Below are positions 5,300 to 52,826 of a DNA stretch of 64,000 nucleotides, piece after piece (position 1 is the first letter of the stretch; each line of letters begins with the position of its first letter). The notes beneath the pieces were generated by a model. That model did not search any database and was not told where the DNA came from. It saw nothing but the letters and a program-made list of their open reading frames with translations. Both the position numbers and the translations under genes were made by a program. The stretch covers positions 3,536,501 through 3,600,500 of the forward strand of contig NZ_JADBEG010000001.1 in the NCBI RefSeq assembly GCF_014873755.1, read 5' to 3'. Source of the DNA: Amycolatopsis lexingtonensis (lineage in GTDB: Bacteria; Actinomycetota; Actinomycetes; Mycobacteriales; Pseudonocardiaceae).

Positions 5300-6138
5300 C
5301 GACCGGCGACCGGGCCGCCGCGATCACCGGGAAAGTCGTCGTCGTCACCGGCGGCGCCCGCGGTATCGGCCTCGCGACCGCGACCGCGGTGCACCGCCTC
5401 GGTGCGCGGGTCGCCATCGGCGACGTCGACGAGGCCGCCGCGAAGACGGCGGGCGAGGCGGCCGGGTTCGCGGTCGCCGCGAAGCTGGACGTGACCGACC
5501 CCGAGTCGTTCGAGGCGTTCCTCGCCGAGGTCGAGAGCCGCGTCGGACCGGTCGACGTGCTGGTCAACAACGCCGGGGTCATGCCGGTCGGCCTGCTGGC
5601 CGACGAGCCCGACGCGGTGACCCGGCGCGTCCTCGGCATCAACACCTACGGCGTGATCGTCGGCACCAAGCTCGCGCTGCGGCGCATGCTCCCCCGCCGC
5701 ACCGGTCACGTCATCAACGTCGCGTCCCTGGCCGGTGAGGCGTACGCGCCCGGGGTGGCCACCTACTGCGCCAGCAAGTACGCCGTCATCGGGTTCACCG
5801 ACGCGGTCCGGGTCGAGAACCGCGGCAGCGGCGTCGACTTCTCGGTGGTGCTGCCCTCGTTCGTCAACACCGAGCTCACCGCGGGCACCCGGGGGATCCC
5901 CGGCTTCCGCGCGGCCGAGCCGGCGGAGATCGCCGCCGCCATCGTCCGGCTCATCGCCAGGCCGCGTCCGGTCGTGCGGGTCACCTGGCAAACCGGGCTG
6001 CTGCTCGGGTCGCAGAAGTTCCTGCCCCGCCGGGTCTCGGAGGCCGCGGCCCGGGTGCTCGGCGGCGATCACCTGTTCACCGACGACGTCGACGCCGATC
6101 GGCGGCGGGCCTACGAGCACCGCGCCCGCGGCATCTGA
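5296..6138 (+). CDS. Short-chain dehydrogenase/reductase
   Basis: 280 residues from a GTG at 5296 that overlaps the previous stop (GTGA). Cofactor motif TGGARGIG, NNAGVM, and catalytic Y157 and K161 (YCASK) are present. Residues past about 200 (PRPVVRVTWQTGLLLGSQKFLPRR) form the extended C-terminal tail common in mycobacterial and nocardial membrane-associated SDRs. The substrate is unknown; its operon position suggests oxidation or reduction of the alcohol or ketone form of the pathway substrate. The downstream ligase starts 31 bases later. Confidence 0.83.
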   Translation: MTTGDRAAAITGKVVVVTGGARGIGLATATAVHRLGARVAIGDVDEAAAKTAGEAAGFAVAAKLDVTDPESFEAFLAEVESRVGPVDVLVNNAGVMPVGLLADEPDAVTRRVLGINTYGVIVGTKLALRRMLPRRTGHVINVASLAGEAYAPGVATYCASKYAVIGFTDAVRVENRGSGVDFSVVLPSFVNTELTAGTRGIPGFRAAEPAEIAAAIVRLIARPRPVVRVTWQTGLLLGSQKFLPRRVSEAAARVLGGDHLFTDDVDADRRRAYEHRARGI

Positions 6139-6169
6139 CGTCCACTCCCGTTCGCCGAAGGAGCCCGCG

Positions 6170-7940
6170 ATGCCCCCGCCCCGAACCCTCTGCGAGGCGT
6201 TCCAGTCCATCGCCGCGCTGGAACCCGACGCGGTCGCCCTGCGCGATCTCGGCGGCACCGTGACACTCACCTGGCGGCAGTACCGGGACCGGGTGCGCGC
6301 CATCGCCGCCGGGCTGGCCGGCCTGGGCGTGGACCACGGCGACACCGTCGCGCTGATGCTGACCAACCGGCCGGAGTTCCACCTGTGCGACACCGCGGCC
6401 CTGCACCTGGGCGCGACGCCGTTCTCGGTCTACAACACCAATCCGGCGCACGTGCTGGCCTACCAGTTCGGCAACGCCGGGAACCGCGTCGTGATCTGCG
6501 AGCGGCAGTTCCTGCCGGTCGTCCGCGAGGCGATCCGGCACGGGGGCGACGTCGAGCACATCGTCTGCGTCGACAGCGCGGACGGGGGCGTCGTGCCACT
6601 GGCACGGCTGGAAGCCGAGCCGGCGACCGCGTTCGACTTCGAGGCGGCCTGGCGTGCCGTCGTCCCGCGGGACCTGCTCACCCTCGTCTACACCTCGGGG
6701 ACCACCGGACCGCCCAAGGGCGTCGAACTGACCCACGCGAACTTCATCGAGAACGCACGGGTCCTCGCCGACTTCGGCGTCCGCGACCAGCCCAACCGGA
6801 TGATCTCCTACCTGCCGGACGCGCACGCGGCCAACCGCTGGTTCAGCCACTACGCCCACCTGCTGCACGGCGGGCAGATCACCACCGTCGCCGACGCCCG
6901 CCGCCTGCCGGACGCACTCACCGAGGTCCGGCCCACCTACTTCGTCGGCGTGCCCCGCGTCTGGGTCAAGCTGAAGGCGGGGCTGCAGGACGCGCTCGCC
7001 CGGCAGGACCCGATCCGCCGCGCGCTCGCCGGCTGGGCGATCGGCACCGGCCGCGCCCACGCCCGTGCCCGGTCCGACGGCCGCGCGCAGCACCGCGCGG
7101 CACCGCGCGGCACGGCTGCACTACGAGCTGGCCGACCGGCTGGTGCTGGCACGGATCCGGCGGCGGCTCGGCCTCGACCGGATCGCCGCCGCCGTCAGCG
7201 GAGCGGCGCCCATCCCGCGTGAAGTGCACGAGTTCCTCCTGGGCCTCGGCATTCCGCTGTCCGAGGGCTGGGGGATGTCGGAATGCACCGCGGCGATCAC
7301 GGTGAATCCCTTGCACCGCATCAAGATCGGCACGGTCGGCTTGCCGGTGCCCGGCGCGCGGATCGCGCTGGCCGACGACGGCGAGGTCCTCGCACGCGGC
7401 CCGATGGTCATGCGCGGCTACCGCAAGGACCCGGGCAAGACCGCCGAGACCATCGACCCGGACGGCTGGCTGCACACCGGCGACATCGGCGAGTTCGACG
7501 CCGACGGCTACCTGAAGATCGTCGACCGCAAGAAGGAGATCATCGTCAACGCCGCGGGCAAGAACATGTCGCCCACGAACATCGAGAACGCCGTTCTCGC
7601 GCACTGCCCGCTGGTGAGCAGCGCCGTCGTCATCGGCGAACAGCGCCCGTACAACACGATGCTGCTCTGCCTCGATCCCGACGCCGCCCAGGCCTTCGCC
7701 CACCGGCACGGGCTGCCGGGCGACCTCGCGACATTGACCGGGCGCGCCGAGCTGGTGGCCGCCGTGCAGAGCGGGGTGGACGCCGCCAACGCCACGCTGT
7801 CGCGGGTCGAGCAGATCAAGAAGTTCACCGTCCTGCCCGAGATCTGGCTGCCGGGCAGCGCGCACCTGACCCCGACCGGCAAGCTCAGGCGCACCCCGAT
7901 CGCCACCCACTACGCCCAGGCAATCGAGGCCATGTACTGA
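6170..7940 (+). pseudogene. Long-chain acyl-CoA ligase (AMP-forming), frameshifted by a 10-bp tandem duplication
   Basis: The N-terminal part reads to the adenylate P-loop YTSGTTGPPKG and on to about residue 305. The C-terminal part continues in another frame with GWGMSE, the TGDIGEFDADGYLKIVDRKKE hinge and the final catalytic Lys region TGKLRR. Deleting one copy of the duplicated 10-mer at 7091-7110 restores one 586-residue frame with a smooth join (HRAARLHYELADR). As it stands, translation runs into unrelated sequence and stops at 7222, giving 350 residues without the mobile C-terminal domain. A GTG at 7065 could allow separate translation of the C-terminal part. The intact enzyme would have activated the free acid that starts the pathway. 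It may be a true pseudogene, a slippage-switchable gene, or an assembly artefact. Confidence 0.85.
7091..7110 (+). repeat. 10-bp perfect tandem duplication inside the acyl-CoA ligase gene
   Basis: CACCGCGCGG occurs twice head to tail (7091-7100 and 7101-7110) and is followed by CACGG, a partial third copy. Removing one unit restores the ligase reading frame exactly. This is the signature of replication slippage. Confidence 0.9.
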
Positions 7941-7944
7941 ATCG

Positions 7945-10900
7945 TCAGACGCCCGCCGGAACGACCGCGGGAACGACCGGCTTCCGGCGGTTACCGGGAA
8001 GCAGCCGCAGGGGACGGCGGGCCGCCAGGTCCTCGACCCAGCCGAAGGCGAGCACGGCCACGGCCGTGAGAACGGCCGATGTCGCCAGCCGAACCGGCAG
8101 CGAAGACCAGCCGAGCCAGTCGTCGACGGGATAGGAAACGTCGATGGCGACGTTGTGCCACAGGTAGATCGTCACCGCACGCGCGTTGAGCACGGTCACC
8201 AGCCGGCCGAACACCGGCGTCCGGTCCAGCCAGGCGAGCTTGGGCGACACCCGCAGGAACACGAGGATCGCGGCGGCGGAGATCAACGCCTGCCCGAGCG
8301 GGATCTCGTTGAGGTCGAACGTCCCGTCCGGCAGCGGGTGCCCCGCCGTCCACCAGGCGCCCAGTCCGACCGCGGCCGCGAACAGTCCCGCCAGCACGGC
8401 CGGGTGGATCCGGCGCAGCATGCCTTCCCGGTGGGCGAAGCCCAGCATCCAGCACGCCCCGAAGGTGACGAAGTCCAGCACACCCTCGCCGACCGGCCCC
8501 GAATCGGCCAGCGGGGAGCCCAATACGGCGTCCACCGCGACGAAGACCAGCGGGGCGAGCACGGTGACGACCGGCCGGCGGCGGAACGCGAGCAGCAGCA
8601 GCGGGCTGAGCAGCACGAACCACAGGTAGGCACGGAGGTACCACAGCGCCACCGTGAAGTCCGCACCCCAGAGACTGCCCGGCGGGTCCAGGATCGGGAA
8701 CACCCAGAACACCATCCGCGGCCAGCTCAGGGCGAGGTCGCCGGTGTCGCGCGCCCAGCCGTGCGCGAGCATCAGCCCGACCGCGACCAGGCCGAAGAGC
8801 CACAGCGGGGGCAACAGCCGGCGGATGCGGTGGCCGACGACGTCCACCGCGGGTGTGCGGCGCAGTGAGCTCACCATGAGGGAACCGCCGAGCGCGAACA
8901 TCACGCCCATGGACGGGAAGGCGAGGCTCAGCCACCCCCAGCCCGTGGCGTGGTAGAGCACGACCCGCACCAGCGCGACCCCGCGCAGGCTGTCGAGCCA
9001 GCGGTCACGGCGCCCCGGCGGCGGGGGTTCGGTCGCCGGAGCGACCCGGGGCTCGACCGGCCCGGCGGGCGCCACCCCGGCCCGCACGGTCGCCCGCAGC
9101 GCACCGATGCGGTGCATCCGCTGCCAGCGCACGAGAATCCCGGACACCGCCGCGCCCAGCGACTGGATGAGGACCACGTACATCAGCTGGCGGTACACCA
9201 GCTGCTGCATCGGGATCAGCCACAGCGCGCTCTTCGGCTCGCCGTCGAGGTGGAAGGCGTACGCGGCGCCCGCGCTCTGCAGCAGCATCACCGACAGCCA
9301 GAGCACGAGCGTCGTCCCGGGATCGAGGAAGAACAAGCCGTAGACGAAGAACACGTCGATCAGCGGCGCGGTCACCGGCAGCACGATCTGGAACGCGAGG
9401 ACGTGCAGGAGCCCGAACCGGCCCAGGCGGCCCGCCGTGCCCCGCTGGACGACCGCCCGGCGGTGCCGCCACACCGACTGCATCGTGCCGTAGGTCCAGC
9501 GGAACCGCTGCTGCCACAGCTGCCGCAGGGTCGCCGGGGCCTCGGTCCAGGCGACCGCGTCGTCCACATAGGACATGCGCCAGCCTGCCCTGCCGATCCC
9601 GATGGTCAGATCGGTGTCCTCGGCCAGGGTCAGCGAGCTCAAGCCGCCGGCATCGGCGATCGCGGCCCGCCGGAACGCGCCCGCGGCGCCCGGGATCGTG
9701 CAGATCGACCCGGTCAGGTCGTGCACGCGGCGGTCCACGCTGAACCCGATGACGTACTCGATGTGCTGCAGCCTGGTCAGGAAGGTGTCGCGGTTGACGA
9801 TCTTCACGTTGCCGGACACCGCACCCATCCCGGGCCGGGCGAAGGGTTGCACCAGGCGCCGGACGGCGGTGGGCTCGACCACGGTGTCGCCATCGACCAT
9901 GACGATGAGGTCGTACCGGGCCTGCGCGATCCCGGCGTTCAGCGCGGCCGCCTTGCCCTGGTTGCGCTGGCGGAGGACCCGTACCCCGGGCAGCTCGAGA
10001 GCTTCGACGAGGTCGGCGGTGCCGTCGGTGGACCCGTCGTCGACGACCACGACCTCCACCGGGTGGTCACTGGCCAGGATGGACCGCAGCGCCACTTCGA
10101 TGTTGGCCGACTCGTTGTAGGCGGGCACGACGACCGAGACCGGTTCGGTCACCGGGGGTCCCCAGCTCCAGCGCGGATGGCGGCGCTGCCGGGCGTGCCT
10201 GCCCGCGTAGCCGAGCATCAGCAGCAGCCGGAGGATCACCAGCACGCCGACGCCCAGCAGGATCCACTGCAGCCAGGCGACCACGGTGAGGGAAACACCG
10301 ATGGCGCCCAGCAGGATCTCCCCGGTCACCCGGTCCCGGGCGGTGGCGGGCTGGTTGGCCGGGGCCATCCCGGCCGCGGCGGTGACGGTGGCGAAGTGGT
10401 AGCCCTGCTGCTGCAGCCGCGGGATCAGCAGGTCCAGCGCCGCGACCGTCTCGGACCGGTCGCCGCCGGCGTCGTGCAGCAGCACGATCGAACCCGCGTC
10501 CGAGGGCGGTGTGGCGTTGTGCACGATCGCCGAGACCCCCGGCCGCGCCCAGTCGTCGCTGTCGGTGTCGGTGAAAACGCTGAGGTAGCCGCGCGCCGCA
10601 GCCGACTGCACGGTGCGGTAGCCGAGGTCGTCGACCGCGGAGACGCTGGAGGAGTACGGCGGGCGGAAGAGGTTGGTGGTCAGGCCGGTGCTGCCGACGA
10701 GCACCATTTCCGTCTGGTCCAGCTCCCGGTCCAGCCGCCACGGGGAGACATCCACCAGGTCGGGGTGGGTGAAGGTGTGCAGCCCGATTTCCGAACCGGA
10801 GTCGTGGATCCGGCGGAGGAGTTCCGGATGGCGCGAAGCCATCGAGCCGACGACGAAGAACGTCGCGGGCACTTGGTGCTTGCGCAGGATGGAGAGGATC

Positions 10901-11190
10901 TGGGGCGTCCAGGTCGGATCGGGTCCGTCGTCGAAGGTCAGCGCGATGGTCTTGGCGGCCGGTGCCCGCGAGACCACCGGAGACCGGATCGCGTCGACCA
11001 CCGCACCACCGTTGACCACCGCGGCGGGCACCGAAGAGGTGCCCACCGGGTCGTGCGCCTTGGCGTCGTTGCTGACCTGAGAGCTCGCCAAGCCCGCGAT
11101 GACGAGCATCACCGACAGCAGGGCCACCGCGATGCCCGCGAACACCCAAGGCAGCCGGAGGCGGCCTCGCCACCTCCGGCGCCCGGTCAC
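7945..11190 (-). CDS. Triple-domain cell-envelope enzyme: NodB-type polysaccharide deacetylase + GT2 synthase + acyltransferase-3
   Basis: 1081 residues. A signal-anchor (about 15-36) is followed by an extracytoplasmic NodB deacetylase (about 78-275) with TFDDGPD (D87, D88), the metal histidines in HTFTHPD (H138, H142), RPPY at 176-179 and LLHD at 237-240. After membrane segments near 292-328 comes a GT2 domain with PAYNE, DDGSTDG (384-390), DGD (433-435), EDTD (524-527) and the processive-synthase motif QQRFRW (560-565), then more membrane helices. From about 728 an acyltransferase-3 domain begins with RWLDSLRGVALVRVVLYH (H747) and about ten hydrophobic segments. Deacetylase-GT2 fusions are common in actinobacteria; the third module is the unusual part. 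It overlaps the upstream proline-rich gene by four bases (GTGA). It likely makes a partly deacetylated, O- or N-acylated glycan at the membrane (inference). Confidence 0.9.
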   Translation of the reverse strand: MTGRRRWRGRLRLPWVFAGIAVALLSVMLVIAGLASSQVSNDAKAHDPVGTSSVPAAVVNGGAVVDAIRSPVVSRAPAAKTIALTFDDGPDPTWTPQILSILRKHQVPATFFVVGSMASRHPELLRRIHDSGSEIGLHTFTHPDLVDVSPWRLDRELDQTEMVLVGSTGLTTNLFRPPYSSSVSAVDDLGYRTVQSAAARGYLSVFTDTDSDDWARPGVSAIVHNATPPSDAGSIVLLHDAGGDRSETVAALDLLIPRLQQQGYHFATVTAAAGMAPANQPATARDRVTGEILLGAIGVSLTVVAWLQWILLGVGVLVILRLLLMLGYAGRHARQRRHPRWSWGPPVTEPVSVVVPAYNESANIEVALRSILASDHPVEVVVVDDGSTDGTADLVEALELPGVRVLRQRNQGKAAALNAGIAQARYDLIVMVDGDTVVEPTAVRRLVQPFARPGMGAVSGNVKIVNRDTFLTRLQHIEYVIGFSVDRRVHDLTGSICTIPGAAGAFRRAAIADAGGLSSLTLAEDTDLTIGIGRAGWRMSYVDDAVAWTEAPATLRQLWQQRFRWTYGTMQSVWRHRRAVVQRGTAGRLGRFGLLHVLAFQIVLPVTAPLIDVFFVYGLFFLDPGTTLVLWLSVMLLQSAGAAYAFHLDGEPKSALWLIPMQQLVYRQLMYVVLIQSLGAAVSGILVRWQRMHRIGALRATVRAGVAPAGPVEPRVAPATEPPPPGRRDRWLDSLRGVALVRVVLYHATGWGWLSLAFPSMGVMFALGGSLMVSSLRRTPAVDVVGHRIRRLLPPLWLFGLVAVGLMLAHGWARDTGDLALSWPRMVFWVFPILDPPGSLWGADFTVALWYLRAYLWFVLLSPLLLLAFRRRPVVTVLAPLVFVAVDAVLGSPLADSGPVGEGVLDFVTFGACWMLGFAHREGMLRRIHPAVLAGLFAAAVGLGAWWTAGHPLPDGTFDLNEIPLGQALISAAAILVFLRVSPKLAWLDRTPVFGRLVTVLNARAVTIYLWHNVAIDVSYPVDDWLGWSSLPVRLATSAVLTAVAVLAFGWVEDLAARRPLRLLPGNRRKPVVPAVVPAGV

Positions 11191-11906
11191 AGCAGGTTAC
11201 CGAGCAGCGACCCGACCGCCCCGGTCACGGGTGCGACCACGCCACCGACGACCTCGACCACGGGTGGGACGACGGACACGACCGGCGCCACCACCGCCGG
11301 AGCGGGTGGCTGCACGACCACGGGCGGAACCACCGCTACCGGCGGAACCGCGGCTGCGGGCCGTGCCTGCGGAACGGGATCGGCCCGGTTCACCGGCGCC
11401 GGGCCGGCGACCGCCTGGTTCCCCGGCTGCGCCGCCGCCGCGGGCCCGCTCGTGCCACTCTGCGCTCCGCCCGCCGGCTGCTGTCCCCCTGCAGCGGCGC
11501 CGCCCGCTACCGCGGACAGGGGAAGGGCGTTGGCCGGTATGGCGATACGCGGCCCGGAACTCCGGCCCGTCCCCGGTGACTGCTGCTGTCCCGCGCCGGC
11601 GGCCGGCGGCCGCCCCGCACCCGGTACGGCCGGAAGGGCGCCCGGCGCGGAGTTGGACTCGGCGTCGCCGGCGGCGGACGTCGCCGGCTGGTTGGCCAGC
11701 AACAGCCCGGTACCCGCGATGAACGCGACCCCCGCGACGGCCAGTACCCCGGCCGAACCGCGGACCAGCAGCCGCCGGCGCCCGCTCGGATCGACGAACA
11801 CCGGATCGACGCGACGGTTCGCCTCGACGTGGCGGGCCTGCTGACGTTCGCCGGAACCGAGCCCGGCGAACAGATCCGGACCGCGCGGATAATGATGGGT
11901 GACCAC
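11187..11906 (-). CDS. Pro/Ala/Val-rich single-pass membrane protein, partner of the triple-domain enzyme
   Basis: 239 residues from a GTG at 11906, chosen because AAGGAG lies five bases upstream; a longer frame to 11978 has no such site. Cytosolic head of about 45 residues (basic GRRRLL before the membrane), one transmembrane helix (VLAVAGVAFIAGTGLLLA), then a long extracytoplasmic tail rich in Pro, Ala, Gly, Gln and Val, ending in hydrophobic VV/PP repeats and GSLLGNLL. No catalytic motif is visible. Translational coupling to the deacetylase-synthase-acyltransferase suggests a scaffold, wall-spanning or polymer-guiding role (inference). Low-complexity composition makes homology assignment unreliable. 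Confidence 0.7.
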   Translation of the reverse strand: MVTHHYPRGPDLFAGLGSGERQQARHVEANRRVDPVFVDPSGRRRLLVRGSAGVLAVAGVAFIAGTGLLLANQPATSAAGDAESNSAPGALPAVPGAGRPPAAGAGQQQSPGTGRSSGPRIAIPANALPLSAVAGGAAAGGQQPAGGAQSGTSGPAAAAQPGNQAVAGPAPVNRADPVPQARPAAAVPPVAVVPPVVVQPPAPAVVAPVVSVVPPVVEVVGGVVAPVTGAVGSLLGNLL

Positions 11907-12305
11907 GTTGACTCCTTCATGCACTCGTGAACCGGGGAAACCGGTCAGGGGCCGGAGGTACTCCGAAGCGGCAAGCACGATGTGCGACTGAGCCCCCAGC
12001 GACGCGGAAGCGGTGTGACGACTCCACCCGCCATCCGCGTGTTGCTCTCCGTGTCCCCAGCATCCGGTCGAGGCACGGGTGACAGCTAGGGCCGTGTGTC
12101 ACAGCAATTGCGCCGAAGAGACCAATCTGCGGGCTCCCCGGCGGCACCACTGGTCCATTCGGCTGAACCCGGCCGCCGGCGGCGGAGTATCGGTCACCGA
12201 ATCGCTTGCCCGCGGAAGTGGGCCTAGGATTCGGGAGAACAGCACGTCACGGCAACCCCGGACCCCGGTGGCCGAACACGCGTCACCCGCCACCGGGAGC
12301 AGCCG
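11907..12305. other. 400-bp divergent intergenic region
   Basis: It separates the leftward envelope operon from the rightward small-gene pair. I see no convincing gene. An inverted repeat (GTGACA at 12079-12084, TGTCAC at 12097-12102, 12-bp spacer) is the only clear symmetric element and could be an operator. A structured leader RNA for the leftward operon is possible but I could not match one. Confidence 0.4.
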
Positions 12306-12476
12306 ATGACCAGCGTCCAGCACACGACGAAACCCCTCCTCACGCGCGAGTTCACCCGGCGGGCAGCCGGCGCCTGGGTCCGTGCCGCGGACGCCGGGAT
12401 CATCGACGCCGCGGAACTCGTCTGGCTGCTGGAGCACCTGCCGGCGGAGCCGGCGCGGCCGAAGGCGACCGGTTGA
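12306..12476 (+). CDS. Small protein (56 aa), unknown function
   Basis: ATG 12306 with GGGAGC nine bases upstream. The product begins MTSVQHTTKPLLTREFTRRA, is rich in Ala, Arg and Leu and is predicted to be mostly helical (DAAELVWLLEHLPAEPAR). It overlaps the next frame (TTGA), which suggests co-translation with the sigma-like protein that follows. It could be a small binding partner or adaptor; no domain is recognisable. Confidence 0.5.
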   Translation: MTSVQHTTKPLLTREFTRRAAGAWVRAADAGIIDAAELVWLLEHLPAEPARPKATG

Positions 12477-12961
12477 CGACCGGGAGCCACTCCCGGCCCG
12501 CACCGGCCCGCCCGGTGCCGGAGTGGGAATCCGCGGAGGTGGATCTGCCCGGCCGGATGCTGACGCTGGTCTACCGGGTCGCGTGCCAGACCGGCCATTC
12601 CCGGCGGAAGAGTGCCGCGTTGTGCAGCCGGATCCTTTGCGCACAGCCGGATGCCGCCGGATCACGGGCGGTCGTGGACGCCGGACGGCAGGTACGCACC
12701 CGCGTCCTGGTGGAGCTGCGTGCCGTCCTGGGCCGGCGGATCGGCCGGTCACGGCTGGACGCGGCACTGCGCGACGCGGTACTGCTCGACGAAGTGACGC
12801 TGCTGCCGCCTCGCCAGCGCTTCGCCTTGTGGTCGACGGCGGTGGACCACCTCACGACGGCCGAACTCGCCACCCGCACCGGCTGGACGTCTCCCCAGAT
12901 CGCCCGGCTGCTGCGGGGCGCGCTGCGAACCGTGACTTCGAAAGCCACCTTGCCGGCGTGA
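12473..12961 (+). CDS. Small protein with a sigma-70 region-4-like helix-turn-helix
   Basis: 162 residues from a TTG at 12473 that overlaps the preceding stop; an internal ATG at 12559 is an alternative. The C-terminal half (LLPPRQRFALWSTAVDHLTTAELATRTGWTS...) has the spacing of sigma region 4: 'LPPRQR', a helix, 'TTAELA', a turn, and a recognition helix with TSPQIARLLRGAL. No region 2 is present, so it is not a complete sigma factor. It may be an orphan region-4 regulator, an anti-sigma mimic, or a decayed ECF factor. Only the HTH similarity is supported. Confidence 0.55.
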   Translation: MTTGSHSRPAPARPVPEWESAEVDLPGRMLTLVYRVACQTGHSRRKSAALCSRILCAQPDAAGSRAVVDAGRQVRTRVLVELRAVLGRRIGRSRLDAALRDAVLLDEVTLLPPRQRFALWSTAVDHLTTAELATRTGWTSPQIARLLRGALRTVTSKATLPA

Positions 12962-13003: not shown

Positions 13004-13855
13004 GTGATCGAAGCGGCGCGCCGGACCTGGCGACTTCTCGAGCCCTACCACGGAATGATCTACTTCGCCCCGGAAGCCGCCGCCGCGTACGAGAAGCTCG
13101 GCCTCACCGGCCGCGCCGGCTATTTCGCGTCGAGGTCGGCGGCGCTCGGCGCGGTCCCGGCGCCGGTCGTGGTCGCGACCTTCTACAACTTCAACCCGGT
13201 CCTCGTCCGGACGTCGATCACCGCCGCCTGGTCCACCACCGACCCGGAAGCCGTCCTGGCCGCGCGGTACGCCGCGGCCGACCGGGCGTTGCGCGACACC
13301 CTGGGCGAGGCGATCGGCTCGCCGGAGATGCGGCGGGCCGCCGCTCTGGCGCGCGAGGCCGCCGAGACGGTCGCCGGCGATGTCATCGGCCGGCCCCTTT
13401 TCGCCGCCCACGCGGCCTTGCCGTGGCCCACCGAGCCCCATCTGGTCCTGTGGCACGCGCAGACCCTGCTCCGGGAGTACCGCGGCGACGCGCACATCGC
13501 GGCTCTGCTGACGGCCGGGCTGGACGGCATCGAAGCCCTCGTCACGCACGCCGCTTCCGGCGCCGTTCCCGCCGAGACGTTGCGCACCTCCCGGTCGTGG
13601 TCCGAAGTGGACTGGAGCCGGGCCGCCGCCGGCCTCCGTGAGCGAGGCTGGCTCACCGGCGACGCCGACCCGGCGTTCACGCCCGCGGGCGCGGCCCGCC
13701 GAGCGGAAATCGAAAAAGCGACCGACGAGAACAGCGTGACTCCCTACGCGCACATCGGCGAGGCCGCCTGCACCGAACTGCGGTCACTGGTCCGCCCGTT
13801 CAGCCGGGCGCTCGCCGCGAGACTCATGCCGTGGGTGCTCGCGAGGCAGGAATGA
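13004..13855 (+). CDS. SCO6745-family protein (winged-helix-like)
   Basis: 283 residues from a GTG start. The N-terminus RRTWRLLEPYHGMIYFAPEAAAAYEKLGLTGRAGYFASRSAALGAVPA is characteristic of the SCO6745 family, widespread in actinomycetes. Its C-terminal part (about 170-245: GLREAGWLT-like segment GLRERGWLTGDADPAFTPAGAA) resembles a MarR-type winged helix. The function is not established; a ligand-responsive regulator is plausible. A palindrome sits directly upstream. It converges with the SDR gene, with 22 bases between their stop codons. Confidence 0.75.
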   Translation: MIEAARRTWRLLEPYHGMIYFAPEAAAAYEKLGLTGRAGYFASRSAALGAVPAPVVVATFYNFNPVLVRTSITAAWSTTDPEAVLAARYAAADRALRDTLGEAIGSPEMRRAAALAREAAETVAGDVIGRPLFAAHAALPWPTEPHLVLWHAQTLLREYRGDAHIAALLTAGLDGIEALVTHAASGAVPAETLRTSRSWSEVDWSRAAAGLRERGWLTGDADPAFTPAGAARRAEIEKATDENSVTPYAHIGEAACTELRSLVRPFSRALAARLMPWVLARQE

Positions 13856-14701: not shown

Positions 14702-15613
14702 GTGCGTGTTCCTGGATCGGATCTCGACCTCCGGCTGGTCGGGTACTTCACGGTCGTCGCCGAGCACGCCAACTTCGCCCGCGCCGCCGCGGTGCTGCGC
14801 GTCGCGCAACCGTCACTGAGCCGTCAGATCCAGCGCCTCGAGCACCACCTGGGCGTGCGCCTGTTCGACCGCACCCCCCAGGGCAGCCGGCTCACGGACG
14901 CCGGCCGCGCTTTCCTGCCCCGGGCTCAGGCGCTGCTCCAGGCCGCCCAGCAAGCCGAGGCCACCGCCCGCGACGCCGGCGCGCCGCGCGAGTTCACCAT
15001 CGGGTACGCCGAGGACCTGGTGATCACCCACGCCGTCCGCCGGCTGCGGCACCGGCATCCCACGGTGCACATCCGTACTCGCCACCTGGCCTGGAACGAC
15101 GCCCACGCCCTCGCCGACCGTCGAGTGGACGCCCTGGTGGCCCGTGCCCCCCTGCCCTTCCCCGCCGACCGCCTGCGCCTGACCGAGCTGTGGGCCGAAC
15201 CGCGGGTCCTGGTCGTTTCGACGAGCCACCGCCTGGCGGGAAAGGAGTCGGTGGCTTTCGACGACCTCCGCGACGAAGTCCTCCCCCAATGCCCGAGCGC
15301 CGTCCCGGAGTGGAGCGACTTCGCCCGCCTCGAGCCCCGTCCGGACGGCGCTGCGGCCCGGAACGCGCCGCCCGGCTACGAATCGTTCGAGGACAAGCTC
15401 GACCTCGTCGCCGAGGAGGACGCGGTGTTGATCCTGGCCGCCGGCGACCGGCGGCCCCGGCTGCGCCCCGACCTGACCACCGTGCCCATCGAAGACATCG
15501 AGCCGGCCCGGGTCGTCCTGGCCGCCCGCGCGGGCGATGACAACCCCCTGATCACCGATTTCCGGAACACCTGGGCCGCCGACGCACCTGCTCCGGCTCC
15601 TCGGGGGCATTGA
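14702..15613 (+). CDS. LysR-family transcriptional regulator
   Basis: 303 residues from GTG. The N-terminal winged HTH is clear (LVGYFTVVAEHANFARAAA, then QPSLSRQIQRLEHHLGVRLFDRT), followed by a linker helix and a periplasmic-binding-like effector domain from about 95 (FTIGYAEDLVITHAV). It is divergent from an SDR gene and presumably controls it through the T-N11-A palindrome between them. The effector is unknown. Confidence 0.9.
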   Translation: MRVPGSDLDLRLVGYFTVVAEHANFARAAAVLRVAQPSLSRQIQRLEHHLGVRLFDRTPQGSRLTDAGRAFLPRAQALLQAAQQAEATARDAGAPREFTIGYAEDLVITHAVRRLRHRHPTVHIRTRHLAWNDAHALADRRVDALVARAPLPFPADRLRLTELWAEPRVLVVSTSHRLAGKESVAFDDLRDEVLPQCPSAVPEWSDFARLEPRPDGAAARNAPPGYESFEDKLDLVAEEDAVLILAAGDRRPRLRPDLTTVPIEDIEPARVVLAARAGDDNPLITDFRNTWAADAPAPAPRGH

Positions 15614-50857: not shown

Positions 50858-51631
50858 TTGAACGACCCCCTCACCCGCCGGGGCCTCTTCGGCTTCGCGC
50901 TGGGTGCCGCCGCGCTGACGGCGTGCTCGGCTCCCTCGCCGTCGCCCGCTCCGGGACCCGGCTCCGCGAGCCATTCCCCGGTCACGACGACGCCGTTCGC
51001 GACGTCGGCCCCGGCCTCCCCGCCGCCGTCCGGCCCGGCCACCGAGGTGAGCCGCTCGACCTCCGGCCGCCCCCAGGTCGGGCTGACCTTCCACGGCGCC
51101 GGTGACCTCCAGGTCACCCGCGAGGTGCTCGACGTCGTGCACCAGCACGGCGCGCGGATCACCGTGCTCGCCGTCGGGACCTGGCTCGCCGCGCACCCCG
51201 ACGCCGCCCGCATGGTGCGCGACGGCGGGCACGAGCTGGGCAACCACACGTGGAGCCACCCGGCGCTGTCGGGGTACGCGGCCGAACCGATGTACGCCGA
51301 AATCCAGCGCTGCCGCGACAAGCTCGTCGAGCTCACCGGGTCCCCGGGCGGCTTCTTCCGCCAGTCCCAGGGCCAGCACGCCACCCCGCGGGAGCTCGCC
51401 GAAGCCGGGCACGCCGGCTATCCGAAGGTCCTCTCCTACGACGTCGACTCCCTCGATTGGACCGACCCTGGGCCCGCCGCCATCCGGGCGGCCGTGGCGA
51501 AGGCCCGCGCGGGCAGCGTGGTGAGCATGCACCTGGGCCACCCCGGCACCGTCGCCGCGCTGCCCGGCATCCTCGCCGATCTCGCCGACCGCGGCCTCGC
51601 TCCGGTCACCGCGTCCGAGCTGCTGGCGTAG
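50858..51631 (+). CDS. Polysaccharide deacetylase-like lipoprotein
   Basis: 257 residues from TTG 50858; an upstream GTG at 50816 is an alternative. A twin-Arg stretch and lipobox (TRRGLFGFALGAAALTACS) give an exported lipoprotein, then a Pro/Ser-rich linker and a NodB fold from about 72. The catalytic motif usually reading TFDDGP is TFHGAGD (H79, D83); the metal histidines are present in NHTWSHP (H130, H134). This variant occurs in an actinobacterial subgroup; activity on glycans is plausible but the catalytic base is altered. It is five bases from the next gene. Confidence 0.8.
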   Translation: MNDPLTRRGLFGFALGAAALTACSAPSPSPAPGPGSASHSPVTTTPFATSAPASPPPSGPATEVSRSTSGRPQVGLTFHGAGDLQVTREVLDVVHQHGARITVLAVGTWLAAHPDAARMVRDGGHELGNHTWSHPALSGYAAEPMYAEIQRCRDKLVELTGSPGGFFRQSQGQHATPRELAEAGHAGYPKVLSYDVDSLDWTDPGPAAIRAAVAKARAGSVVSMHLGHPGTVAALPGILADLADRGLAPVTASELLA

Positions 51632-51635
51632 CCCG

Positions 51636-52826
51636 ATGCGCTTGCTCCCCGTCCTCGCCGTCGTCGCCGTGCTCGCCACCGGATGCTCGTCGGGAGGTGG
51701 CGACCCGATGTCCGGCATGCCCGGCATGAGCGACCCGCCGCCGGCCGGGCTCCCGCACGAGAGCACCCCGCCCATCCCGGGTACGCACCCGCTGCCCGGC
51801 ATGCCCGCCGTCCCCGACCCGCACGACGTGGACGCCGCCGCCGGGGCCGGCATGCTCGCCCCCGCCGTCGCCGCGGACAAGCCGCTGGTCTACGTGCCCC
51901 ACAGCGGGTCCGGTGACGTGTGGGTGATCGACCCGGCCACCTTCCAGGTCGTCGCGAAGTACCCGGCGGGCAAGGAACTGCAGCACGTCGTGCCCTCGTG
52001 GGACCTGCGCACGCTGTACGCCACCGACGACCGCGGCGACCACGTCCTGCCCTTCGACCCGCGGACGGGGCAGCCGGGCAAGCCGTTCCCGGTCGTCGAC
52101 CCTTACAACATGTACTTCACCCCCGATGGCCGGTACGCGATCTCGGTGGCCGAGCGGCTGCGCAAGCTGGTCTGGTACGACCCGCATACGTGGCAGGTGC
52201 ATGACGAAACGCCCGCCCCGGGGTGCGCGGGCATCGACCACGCGGACTTCTCGCCCGACGGCCGTACCGCGGTCTTCACGTGCGAGTTCGCCGGCCGCGT
52301 CGCGGTGGTCGACGTCGCCTCCCACCACCTGCTGCGGATGGTCGACATGCCGCACCGCAACACGCGCATGGGCCCGCAGGACATCAAGCTCGCCCCCGAC
52401 GGCTCGGTGTACTACATCGCCGACTCCGACGCGAACGGCCTCTGGATCCTCGACGGCGCGGCGACGAAGGTGCTCCGCTTCATCTCGACCGGCCGCGGCG
52501 CGCACGGGCTGTACTTGTCGCGGGATGCCAAGCAGCTCTACGTGACCAACCGCCACGAGGGCAGCGTCAGCGTGCTCGACGCATACACCGGCGCACCTGT
52601 GACGGTGTGGCACATCCCGGGCGGCGGCAGCCCGGACATGGGCAACGTGACGTCCGACGGCACACAGCTGTGGCTGTCCGGCCGCTACGACCGAGTCGTC
52701 TATGTACTGTCCACAAAGGATGGTGCGTTACTGGCGAAGATCCCCGTCGGGAACGAGCCGCATGGTCTCTGCGTGTGGCCGCAGCCGGGCCGATATTCCC
52801 TCGGCCACACGGGGATCACCCGTTGA
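51636..52826 (+). CDS. YncE-like beta-propeller lipoprotein
   Basis: 396 residues with a lipobox (VLATGCSSG), a Met/Pro-rich linker (MSGMPGMSDPPP) and about six YVTN-type repeats (VYVPHSGSGDVWVIDPATFQVVAKYPAG, LYVTNRHEGSVSVLDAYTGAPV and others). It probably folds as a surface beta-propeller binding a ligand or partner protein. The Met-rich linker could bind copper, an inference only. It is coupled to the deacetylase-like lipoprotein. Confidence 0.85.
   Translation: MRLLPVLAVVAVLATGCSSGGGDPMSGMPGMSDPPPAGLPHESTPPIPGTHPLPGMPAVPDPHDVDAAAGAGMLAPAVAADKPLVYVPHSGSGDVWVIDPATFQVVAKYPAGKELQHVVPSWDLRTLYATDDRGDHVLPFDPRTGQPGKPFPVVDPYNMYFTPDGRYAISVAERLRKLVWYDPHTWQVHDETPAPGCAGIDHADFSPDGRTAVFTCEFAGRVAVVDVASHHLLRMVDMPHRNTRMGPQDIKLAPDGSVYYIADSDANGLWILDGAATKVLRFISTGRGAHGLYLSRDAKQLYVTNRHEGSVSVLDAYTGAPVTVWHIPGGGSPDMGNVTSDGTQLWLSGRYDRVVYVLSTKDGALLAKIPVGNEPHGLCVWPQPGRYSLGHTGITR

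Follow-up and report, generated by a model that had tools for sequence, protein, structure and literature searches.

What does a bacterium make with a single protein that combines three polymer-making activities which in other bacteria are usually split over separate proteins? The question is raised by a gene of the soil actinomycete Amycolatopsis lexingtonensis, whose 10.7 Mb genome is assembled in one contig (NZ_JADBEG010000001.1). The window analyzed here is the 64,000 nucleotide stretch from position 3,536,501 to 3,600,500 of that contig. The gene, an open reading frame (ORF) of 1081 amino acids, encodes a deacetylase of carbohydrate esterase family 4 (CE4), a processive glycosyltransferase of family 2 (GT2) and an acyltransferase-3 (AT3) domain in one chain. 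We suggest that the locus is probably a mat-type operon for poly-N-acetylglucosamine (PNAG), in which matA is followed by a matB, encoding CE4 and GT2, that is fused to an IcaC-like acyltransferase. The features of the locus are given below, with residue numbers referring to the fused protein.

7945..11190, negative strand: fused matB::AT3 gene, 1081 amino acids, GTG start
11187..11906, negative strand: matA-type partner gene, 239 amino acids, MatA profile match at E=1e-10
11083..11154, negative strand: transmembrane (TM) helix 1, residues 13-36, signal anchor (model helix and hydropathy)
10366..10962, negative strand: CE4 / NodB-fold deacetylase, residues 77-275 (Pfam, motifs)
9421..10155, negative strand: processive GT2 synthase, residues 346-590, with QQRFRW (Pfam, motifs)
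9091..9420, negative strand: C-terminal membrane helices of the synthase, residues 591-700, putative glycan channel (helices 585-607, 609-621, 624-649 and 653-683)
9007..9090, negative strand: flexible proline-rich linker, residues 701-728 (predicted local distance difference test score, pLDDT, below 50 at 705-720)
8011..9006, negative strand: IcaC-type AT3 domain, residues 729-1060, ten long helices, R736-X10-H747 and R788xxR791 intact (PF01757, motifs, helices)

An initial annotation of this DNA had proposed three activities in a single polypeptide with intact motifs throughout, and both proposals were borne out. Pfam places Polysacc_deac_1 at residues 77-186 (120 bits, cut-off 23.1), Glyco_tranf_2_3 at residues 350-568 (135 bits, cut-off 27) and Acyl_transf_3 (PF01757) at residues 730-1047 (90.3 bits, cut-off 31). 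The CE4 domain has D87 D88, H138 H142, R176-P-P-Y, D213-W214 and H239-D240, the GT2 domain D384-D385, D433xD435, E524-D525 and QQRFRW at 560-565, and the AT3 domain R736-X10-H747 and R788-I-R-R791. The published work cited here by PMC number is cited from excerpts; according to these, R-X10-H in the first transmembrane helix is absolutely conserved in AT3 domains, and RXXR lies at the third (PMC9833829). The window domain thus shares both motifs and ten helices with AT3 proteins such as OafB, OatA and IcaC, but differs from them in being joined after a processive synthase, the usual AT3 fusion partner being a C-terminal SGNH domain (PMC9558356). The PF01757 score, the motifs and the ten helices rule out that the third domain is an unrelated permease. 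A frameshift or assembly artefact was also rejected as unlikely, since the same unbroken 1081 amino acid ORF is found at 95% identity in a second genome of the genus (G025), and two listed homologues (P0002/P0003) are 92% identical to the window protein over 99% of its length.

Translational coupling to a proline-rich membrane protein had been proposed as well, and the GTG of the fused gene does overlap the TGA of the upstream matA-type ORF by 4 nt, CTGTGACC (GTGA). The upstream ORF likely starts at the GTG at 11906, which is preceded by AAGGAG at a distance of 5 nt. Its product has a predicted cytoplasmic tail with a juxtamembrane PVFVDPSGRRR, followed by one TM helix and a proline/alanine-rich tail. 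It gave no match in Pfam or NCBIfam, and matches the MatA profile, which was trained on 66 segments found by pattern in non-fused loci only.

MatA and MatB are described from Streptomyces. S. lividans mutants in matA, matB or both give no anti-PNAG signal, and the signal returns when matAB is put back into the double mutant (PMC5972031). MatB consists of GT2 and CE4, while MatA is without known domains and its function is called unclear (PMC5972031). The two genes are described as translationally coupled (PMC5972031, PMC4391728), with overlapping stop and start codons (PMC4391728), and SCO2961, downstream of them, was named an icaC orthologue by van Dissel et al. (PMC5972031, PMC4391728). We compared the window with the best 80 of at least 588 related stretches, of which 79 are titled Streptomyces and one Kitasatospora; S. 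coelicolor is not among these 80. An AT3 ORF directly follows matB in 77 of the 80 loci, and the three remaining loci stop at a contig edge. In 75 of these 77 the AT3 gene overlaps the end of matB by 4 nt. Upstream, a MatA with the motif P-V-F-V-D-x-[ST]-G-R is encoded in 76 of the 80; the remaining four loci are located at contig starts. The stand-alone AT3 proteins are 42-47% identical to the C-terminal domain of the window protein, and the CE4 and GT2 parts from genomes of the Streptomyces-type genus are about 49-52% identical to it.

Because gene order, overlap, MatA motif and homology match the Streptomyces locus, we read the window operon as matA plus a fused matB::AT3. It shares with matAB-SCO2961 (van Dissel et al. 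2015, 2018) an upstream matA with stop/start overlap, a MatB made of CE4 and GT2, and an AT3 right after these. It differs in that its AT3 is fused via a proline-rich linker, whereas the Streptomyces AT3 is encoded by a third gene with a 4 nt overlap, and in that the regulator beside matA is not common to the window. The staphylococcal icaADBC likewise combines a PNAG synthase (IcaA), a deacetylase (IcaB) and an AT3 (IcaC), but on separate proteins; MatA sits where IcaD would, though no search for IcaD by name was made.

The AlphaFold2 model of the fused protein has a mean pLDDT of 86.7 and shows the ten long AT3 helices between residues 730 and 1049. A structure search (VIA-align) listed matches to the CE4 and GT2 domains and none to AT3; it barely tested the AT3 part and so says nothing on the AT3 fold. 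The best structural match is hyaluronan synthase, which the membrane part of the synthase resembles. The N-terminal anchor would place the deacetylase outside. The side on which the linker lies can be read in two ways. Three segments after GT2 seem sufficiently long to cross the membrane, and the linker would then be outside; its positive charge, like the OafB convention, would place it inside. One of the segments after GT2 may be an interface helix.

How widespread is the fusion? The three-domain architecture had been put forward for a search across genomes, and it is common, and widespread in Pseudonocardiaceae: by our reading, 116 of the 120 homologues listed have all three Pfam families. 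Named carriers are Pseudonocardia, Amycolatopsis, Saccharomonospora, Actinomycetospora, Micromonospora, Plantactinospora and Streptomyces, and at the family level 117 of 297 genomes have a match, fused or not, at E<=1e-60. These counts rule out that the fusion is unique to this genome. Within the genus, among 35 relatives, one has a fused gene, five have a two-domain gene and 29 have no match at E<=1e-100. For gene order we used 116 loci fetched from the listed best matches, so that proportions among them are not population estimates; two are repeats (G706 occurs twice and G646 equals G664), leaving 114 distinct loci.

A CE4+GT2 tree of 78 sequences requires five changes between the fused and the non-fused state, at least four of them forced by well-supported branches; the tree is silent on which changes are gains and which are losses. 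One locus at a contig edge (L166) was given no state, and three long-branched or distant ones (L053, L065 and L066) were dropped; a first quick tree including these three gave 7 changes. Clades of Micromonosporaceae, Streptomyces and Pseudonocardiaceae type all contain fused forms, and in the Streptomyces clade there are loci with adjacent genes as well. A two-domain protein, P0102 of Amycolatopsis antarctica, branches within the fused clade, pointing to a loss of AT3 in its lineage. Streptomyces flaveus is named both for a separate matB-AT3 pair (L112) and for a fused protein (P0115), and the two systems may coexist there. In another Streptomyces-type mat locus (L060) the GT2 part lies in a different frame from CE4 and AT3, a frameshift or assembly error; it is labelled fused in the AT3 tree, yet is no true fusion.

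The partner gene, whose co-occurrence the initial annotation had put forward as a check, is not constant. By profile, MatA is encoded upstream in 78 of 82 non-fused loci, a count that is partly circular, as 70 were first found by pattern; two of the four misses are at contig edges. Among fused loci it is found in 12 of 34 (33 distinct), which rules out that MatA always accompanies the fusion. These 12 are the window, G025, three of the genus of A. thermophila and seven of genus g279. Identical sequences in named proteins assign g279 to Saccharomonospora, g297 to Actinomycetospora and g260 to Pseudonocardia. The Saccharomonospora MatA proteins (L148, L150-L155) are an acidic variant, with a PIF[LH]D-type motif and a long D/E-rich tail that is not proline-rich. 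The fused loci of Actinomycetospora type (L156, L157, L159-L164, L171, L172, L175-L179 and L181) gave no MatA profile match upstream, and several of their genomes also have a two-domain matB with MatA. In all, 12 of the genomes with a MatA-less fused gene also hold a two-domain matB with MatA upstream.

Is the fused AT3 domain always a working acyltransferase? All 76 stand-alone AT3 proteins of mat loci have an intact R-X10-H dyad. It is intact in 112 of 153 fused sequences, a mixture of cluster representatives and genome loci, and 41 lack R, H or both; among the 138 distinct sequences, 99 are intact and 39 are not. Two of the sequences counted as fused by BLAST (P0084 and P0105) have no AT3 in their precomputed Pfam domains, and both lack the dyad. 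The residues that take the place of the H in the lost dyads are Q, E, D, N, R, S, A and G. On a CE4+GT2 tree of 62 rows, 18 of them dyad-less, the dyad state requires nine changes, all of them forced by supported branches (bootstrap range 9-10). The losses are confined to the Pseudonocardiaceae-type part, and all 14 Streptomyces- and Micromonosporaceae-type fused rows are intact. A protein 76% identical to that of the window (P0006) is already dyad-less, and a homologue from Amycolatopsis acidiphila (P0039) lacks the dyad too.

The 18 CE4 and GT2 residues checked stay in the 41 dyad-less proteins, with the exception of one D213T. At 60-70% core identity the dyad-less AT3 domains are more diverged than the intact ones (identity 0.43 vs 0.52). 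Their hydropathy profiles have a median correlation of 0.75, compared with 0.81 for intact fused domains, and they cover a median of 0.99 of the alignment columns (minimum 0.25). In the window's own lineage the AT3 is under purifying selection: against G025 the ratio of nonsynonymous to synonymous substitution rates is 0.31 for AT3, 0.13 for CE4, 0.27 for GT2, 0.035 for the C-terminal helices of the synthase and 0.77 for the linker. With this AT3 as query, no other AT3 was found in the window genome at E<=1e-5.

Several observations weigh against reading the locus as a PNAG operon of the mat type. Both the window protein (186.6 bits) and a Streptomyces MatB (195.5 bits) stay below the equivalog cut-off of 422.3 of the PgaC_IcaA model (TIGR03937), which also sets the window apart from icaADBC. 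The CE4 domain is best matched by peptidoglycan or chitin deacetylases. Each of the three Streptomyces loci scanned has a LysR-type regulator before matA, whereas SCO2964 is called IclR-family (PMC4391728). No recognizable MatA was found in the DNA read for 22 of the 34 fused loci (16 of g297, three of g260, two of them identical, and three of g279). Finally, 71 of 116 loci (70 of 114 distinct) have a two-domain MatB and no AT3 within the stretch read; acylation is therefore not essential to such systems. Some of these points would fit another processive glycan, for example a 1,4- or mixed-linked aminoglycan, that is modified by deacetylation and acylation. Linkage and sugar are unreadable from sequence, peptidoglycan and chitin deacetylases are among the CE4 relatives with solved structures, and hyaluronan synthase is the best structural match. 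Homology to the Streptomyces MatB speaks for PNAG instead, as there dispersin B removes the antibody signal and calcofluor staining is the same in the mutant (PMC5972031), and we consider a different glycan unlikely. The comparison with Nod factors drawn in the initial annotation fared worse. Rhizobial Nod proteins make short N-acylated chitin oligomers, and NodB, NodC and NodX do correspond to a NodB-fold deacetylase, a GT2 and an AT3, but as separate proteins. The window deacetylase scores 138.7 bits to NodB, and NodX is an AT3 protein (PMC9558356). The same deacetylase scores 149.4 bits to PdaB, however, and the GT2 gives only 99.4 bits to NodC against 186.6 to PgaC_IcaA, so that neither the NodC nor the NodB equivalog (TIGR04242 and TIGR04243, cut-offs 550 and 240) is reached. 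The membrane part of the synthase is hyaluronan-synthase-like, and both the operon and the protein agree with the mat locus, for which PNAG is the reported polymer (PMC5972031). Since model scores and gene order favor the mat locus, we reject an acylated chito-oligosaccharide signal as highly improbable, though NodA itself was not looked for. We take the AT3 domain to correspond to O-acylation of the IcaC or NodX type, not to N-acylation of the NodA type.

Within the favored PNAG operon, the AT3 of the fused family could still serve the synthase chiefly for structure or export, with acyl transfer optional and lost in many lineages. Loss of the dyad in fused proteins as opposed to stand-alone ones, in at least nine changes on the tree, argues for this, as do the hydropathy and length mostly kept by dyad-less domains next to intact CE4 and GT2 residues. 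On the other hand, the faster divergence of dyad-less domains also fits slow decay, the window's own dyad is intact, and a close relative (G706) is without AT3. Furthermore, none of the seven same-genus genomes with a two-domain MatB has an AT3 match at E<=1e-10; thus the synthase can do without AT3. We regard a mainly structural role as possible, if on balance unlikely. The dyad losses may mean that a dispensable decoration has decayed repeatedly, or that the domain has a second role, and the data fit either. A tentative and rather doubtful proposal is that, in the fused family, the IcaC-type domain supports the synthase as a scaffold in the membrane or helps in export, independently of acyl transfer.

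For the PNAG operon we propose the following mechanism. The cytoplasmic GT2 would polymerize UDP-N-acetylglucosamine, and the chain would be pushed through the synthase's own C-terminal helices, as the hyaluronan-synthase-like model suggests. CE4, held outside by the N-terminal anchor, would strip some of the acetyl groups. AT3, tethered to the channel by the flexible linker, would take an acyl group, succinyl or acetyl, from coenzyme A and hand it through the membrane to the chain as it emerges. MatA has a conserved PVFVDxSGRR tail and a single TM helix and may be an accessory subunit, as it is needed for PNAG in S. lividans. The acylated, partly deacetylated exopolysaccharide suggested earlier is a possible product.

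The genes around the operon are as follows. On the positive strand, a long-chain acyl-CoA-ligase-like (AMP-binding) gene extends over two frames at 5735-7940 (N-part ORF 5735-7222, C-part 7065-7940), due to either a sequencing error or a broken gene. Beside matA on the opposite strand, an ORF at 12206-12961 (+) has a weak sigma-70 region 4 match, below the cut-off, followed by a HTH_67 family protein at 13004-13855 (+) and, farther from matA, a LysR-type gene at 14702-15613. A further CE4-type match (L005) at 50963-51655 (+) is 33% identical to the deacetylase part and has one TAG within the aligned stretch.

In belonging to a widespread family that is related to a characterized PNAG operon, the protein is ordinary. 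In the one paper collection searched we found no description of a CE4-GT2-AT3 fusion; excerpts of PMC13390465, PMC11064477, PMC9764417, PMC7300013 and PMC12423673 describe none, and those of PMC7112194 mention N-terminal GT fusions in pgaB-like clades and no AT3 fusion. What is new, as far as this literature shows, is the account of the fusion and of its several changes of state, together with the MatA motif and the recurrent dyad loss in AT3. MatA, a subunit of unclear function according to PMC5972031, can be approached through its motif PVFVDxSGRR. Loss of the dyad in a domain that is otherwise kept is relevant to the question of whether IcaC-type proteins acylate PNAG or export it, and the existence of natural homologues of both kinds, dyad-bearing and dyad-less, lets experiments separate the two roles. 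If the scaffold or export proposal is true, IcaC-type proteins would have two separable roles, and the old view of IcaC as a PNAG exporter would be reconciled with the newer view of it as an O-succinyltransferase.

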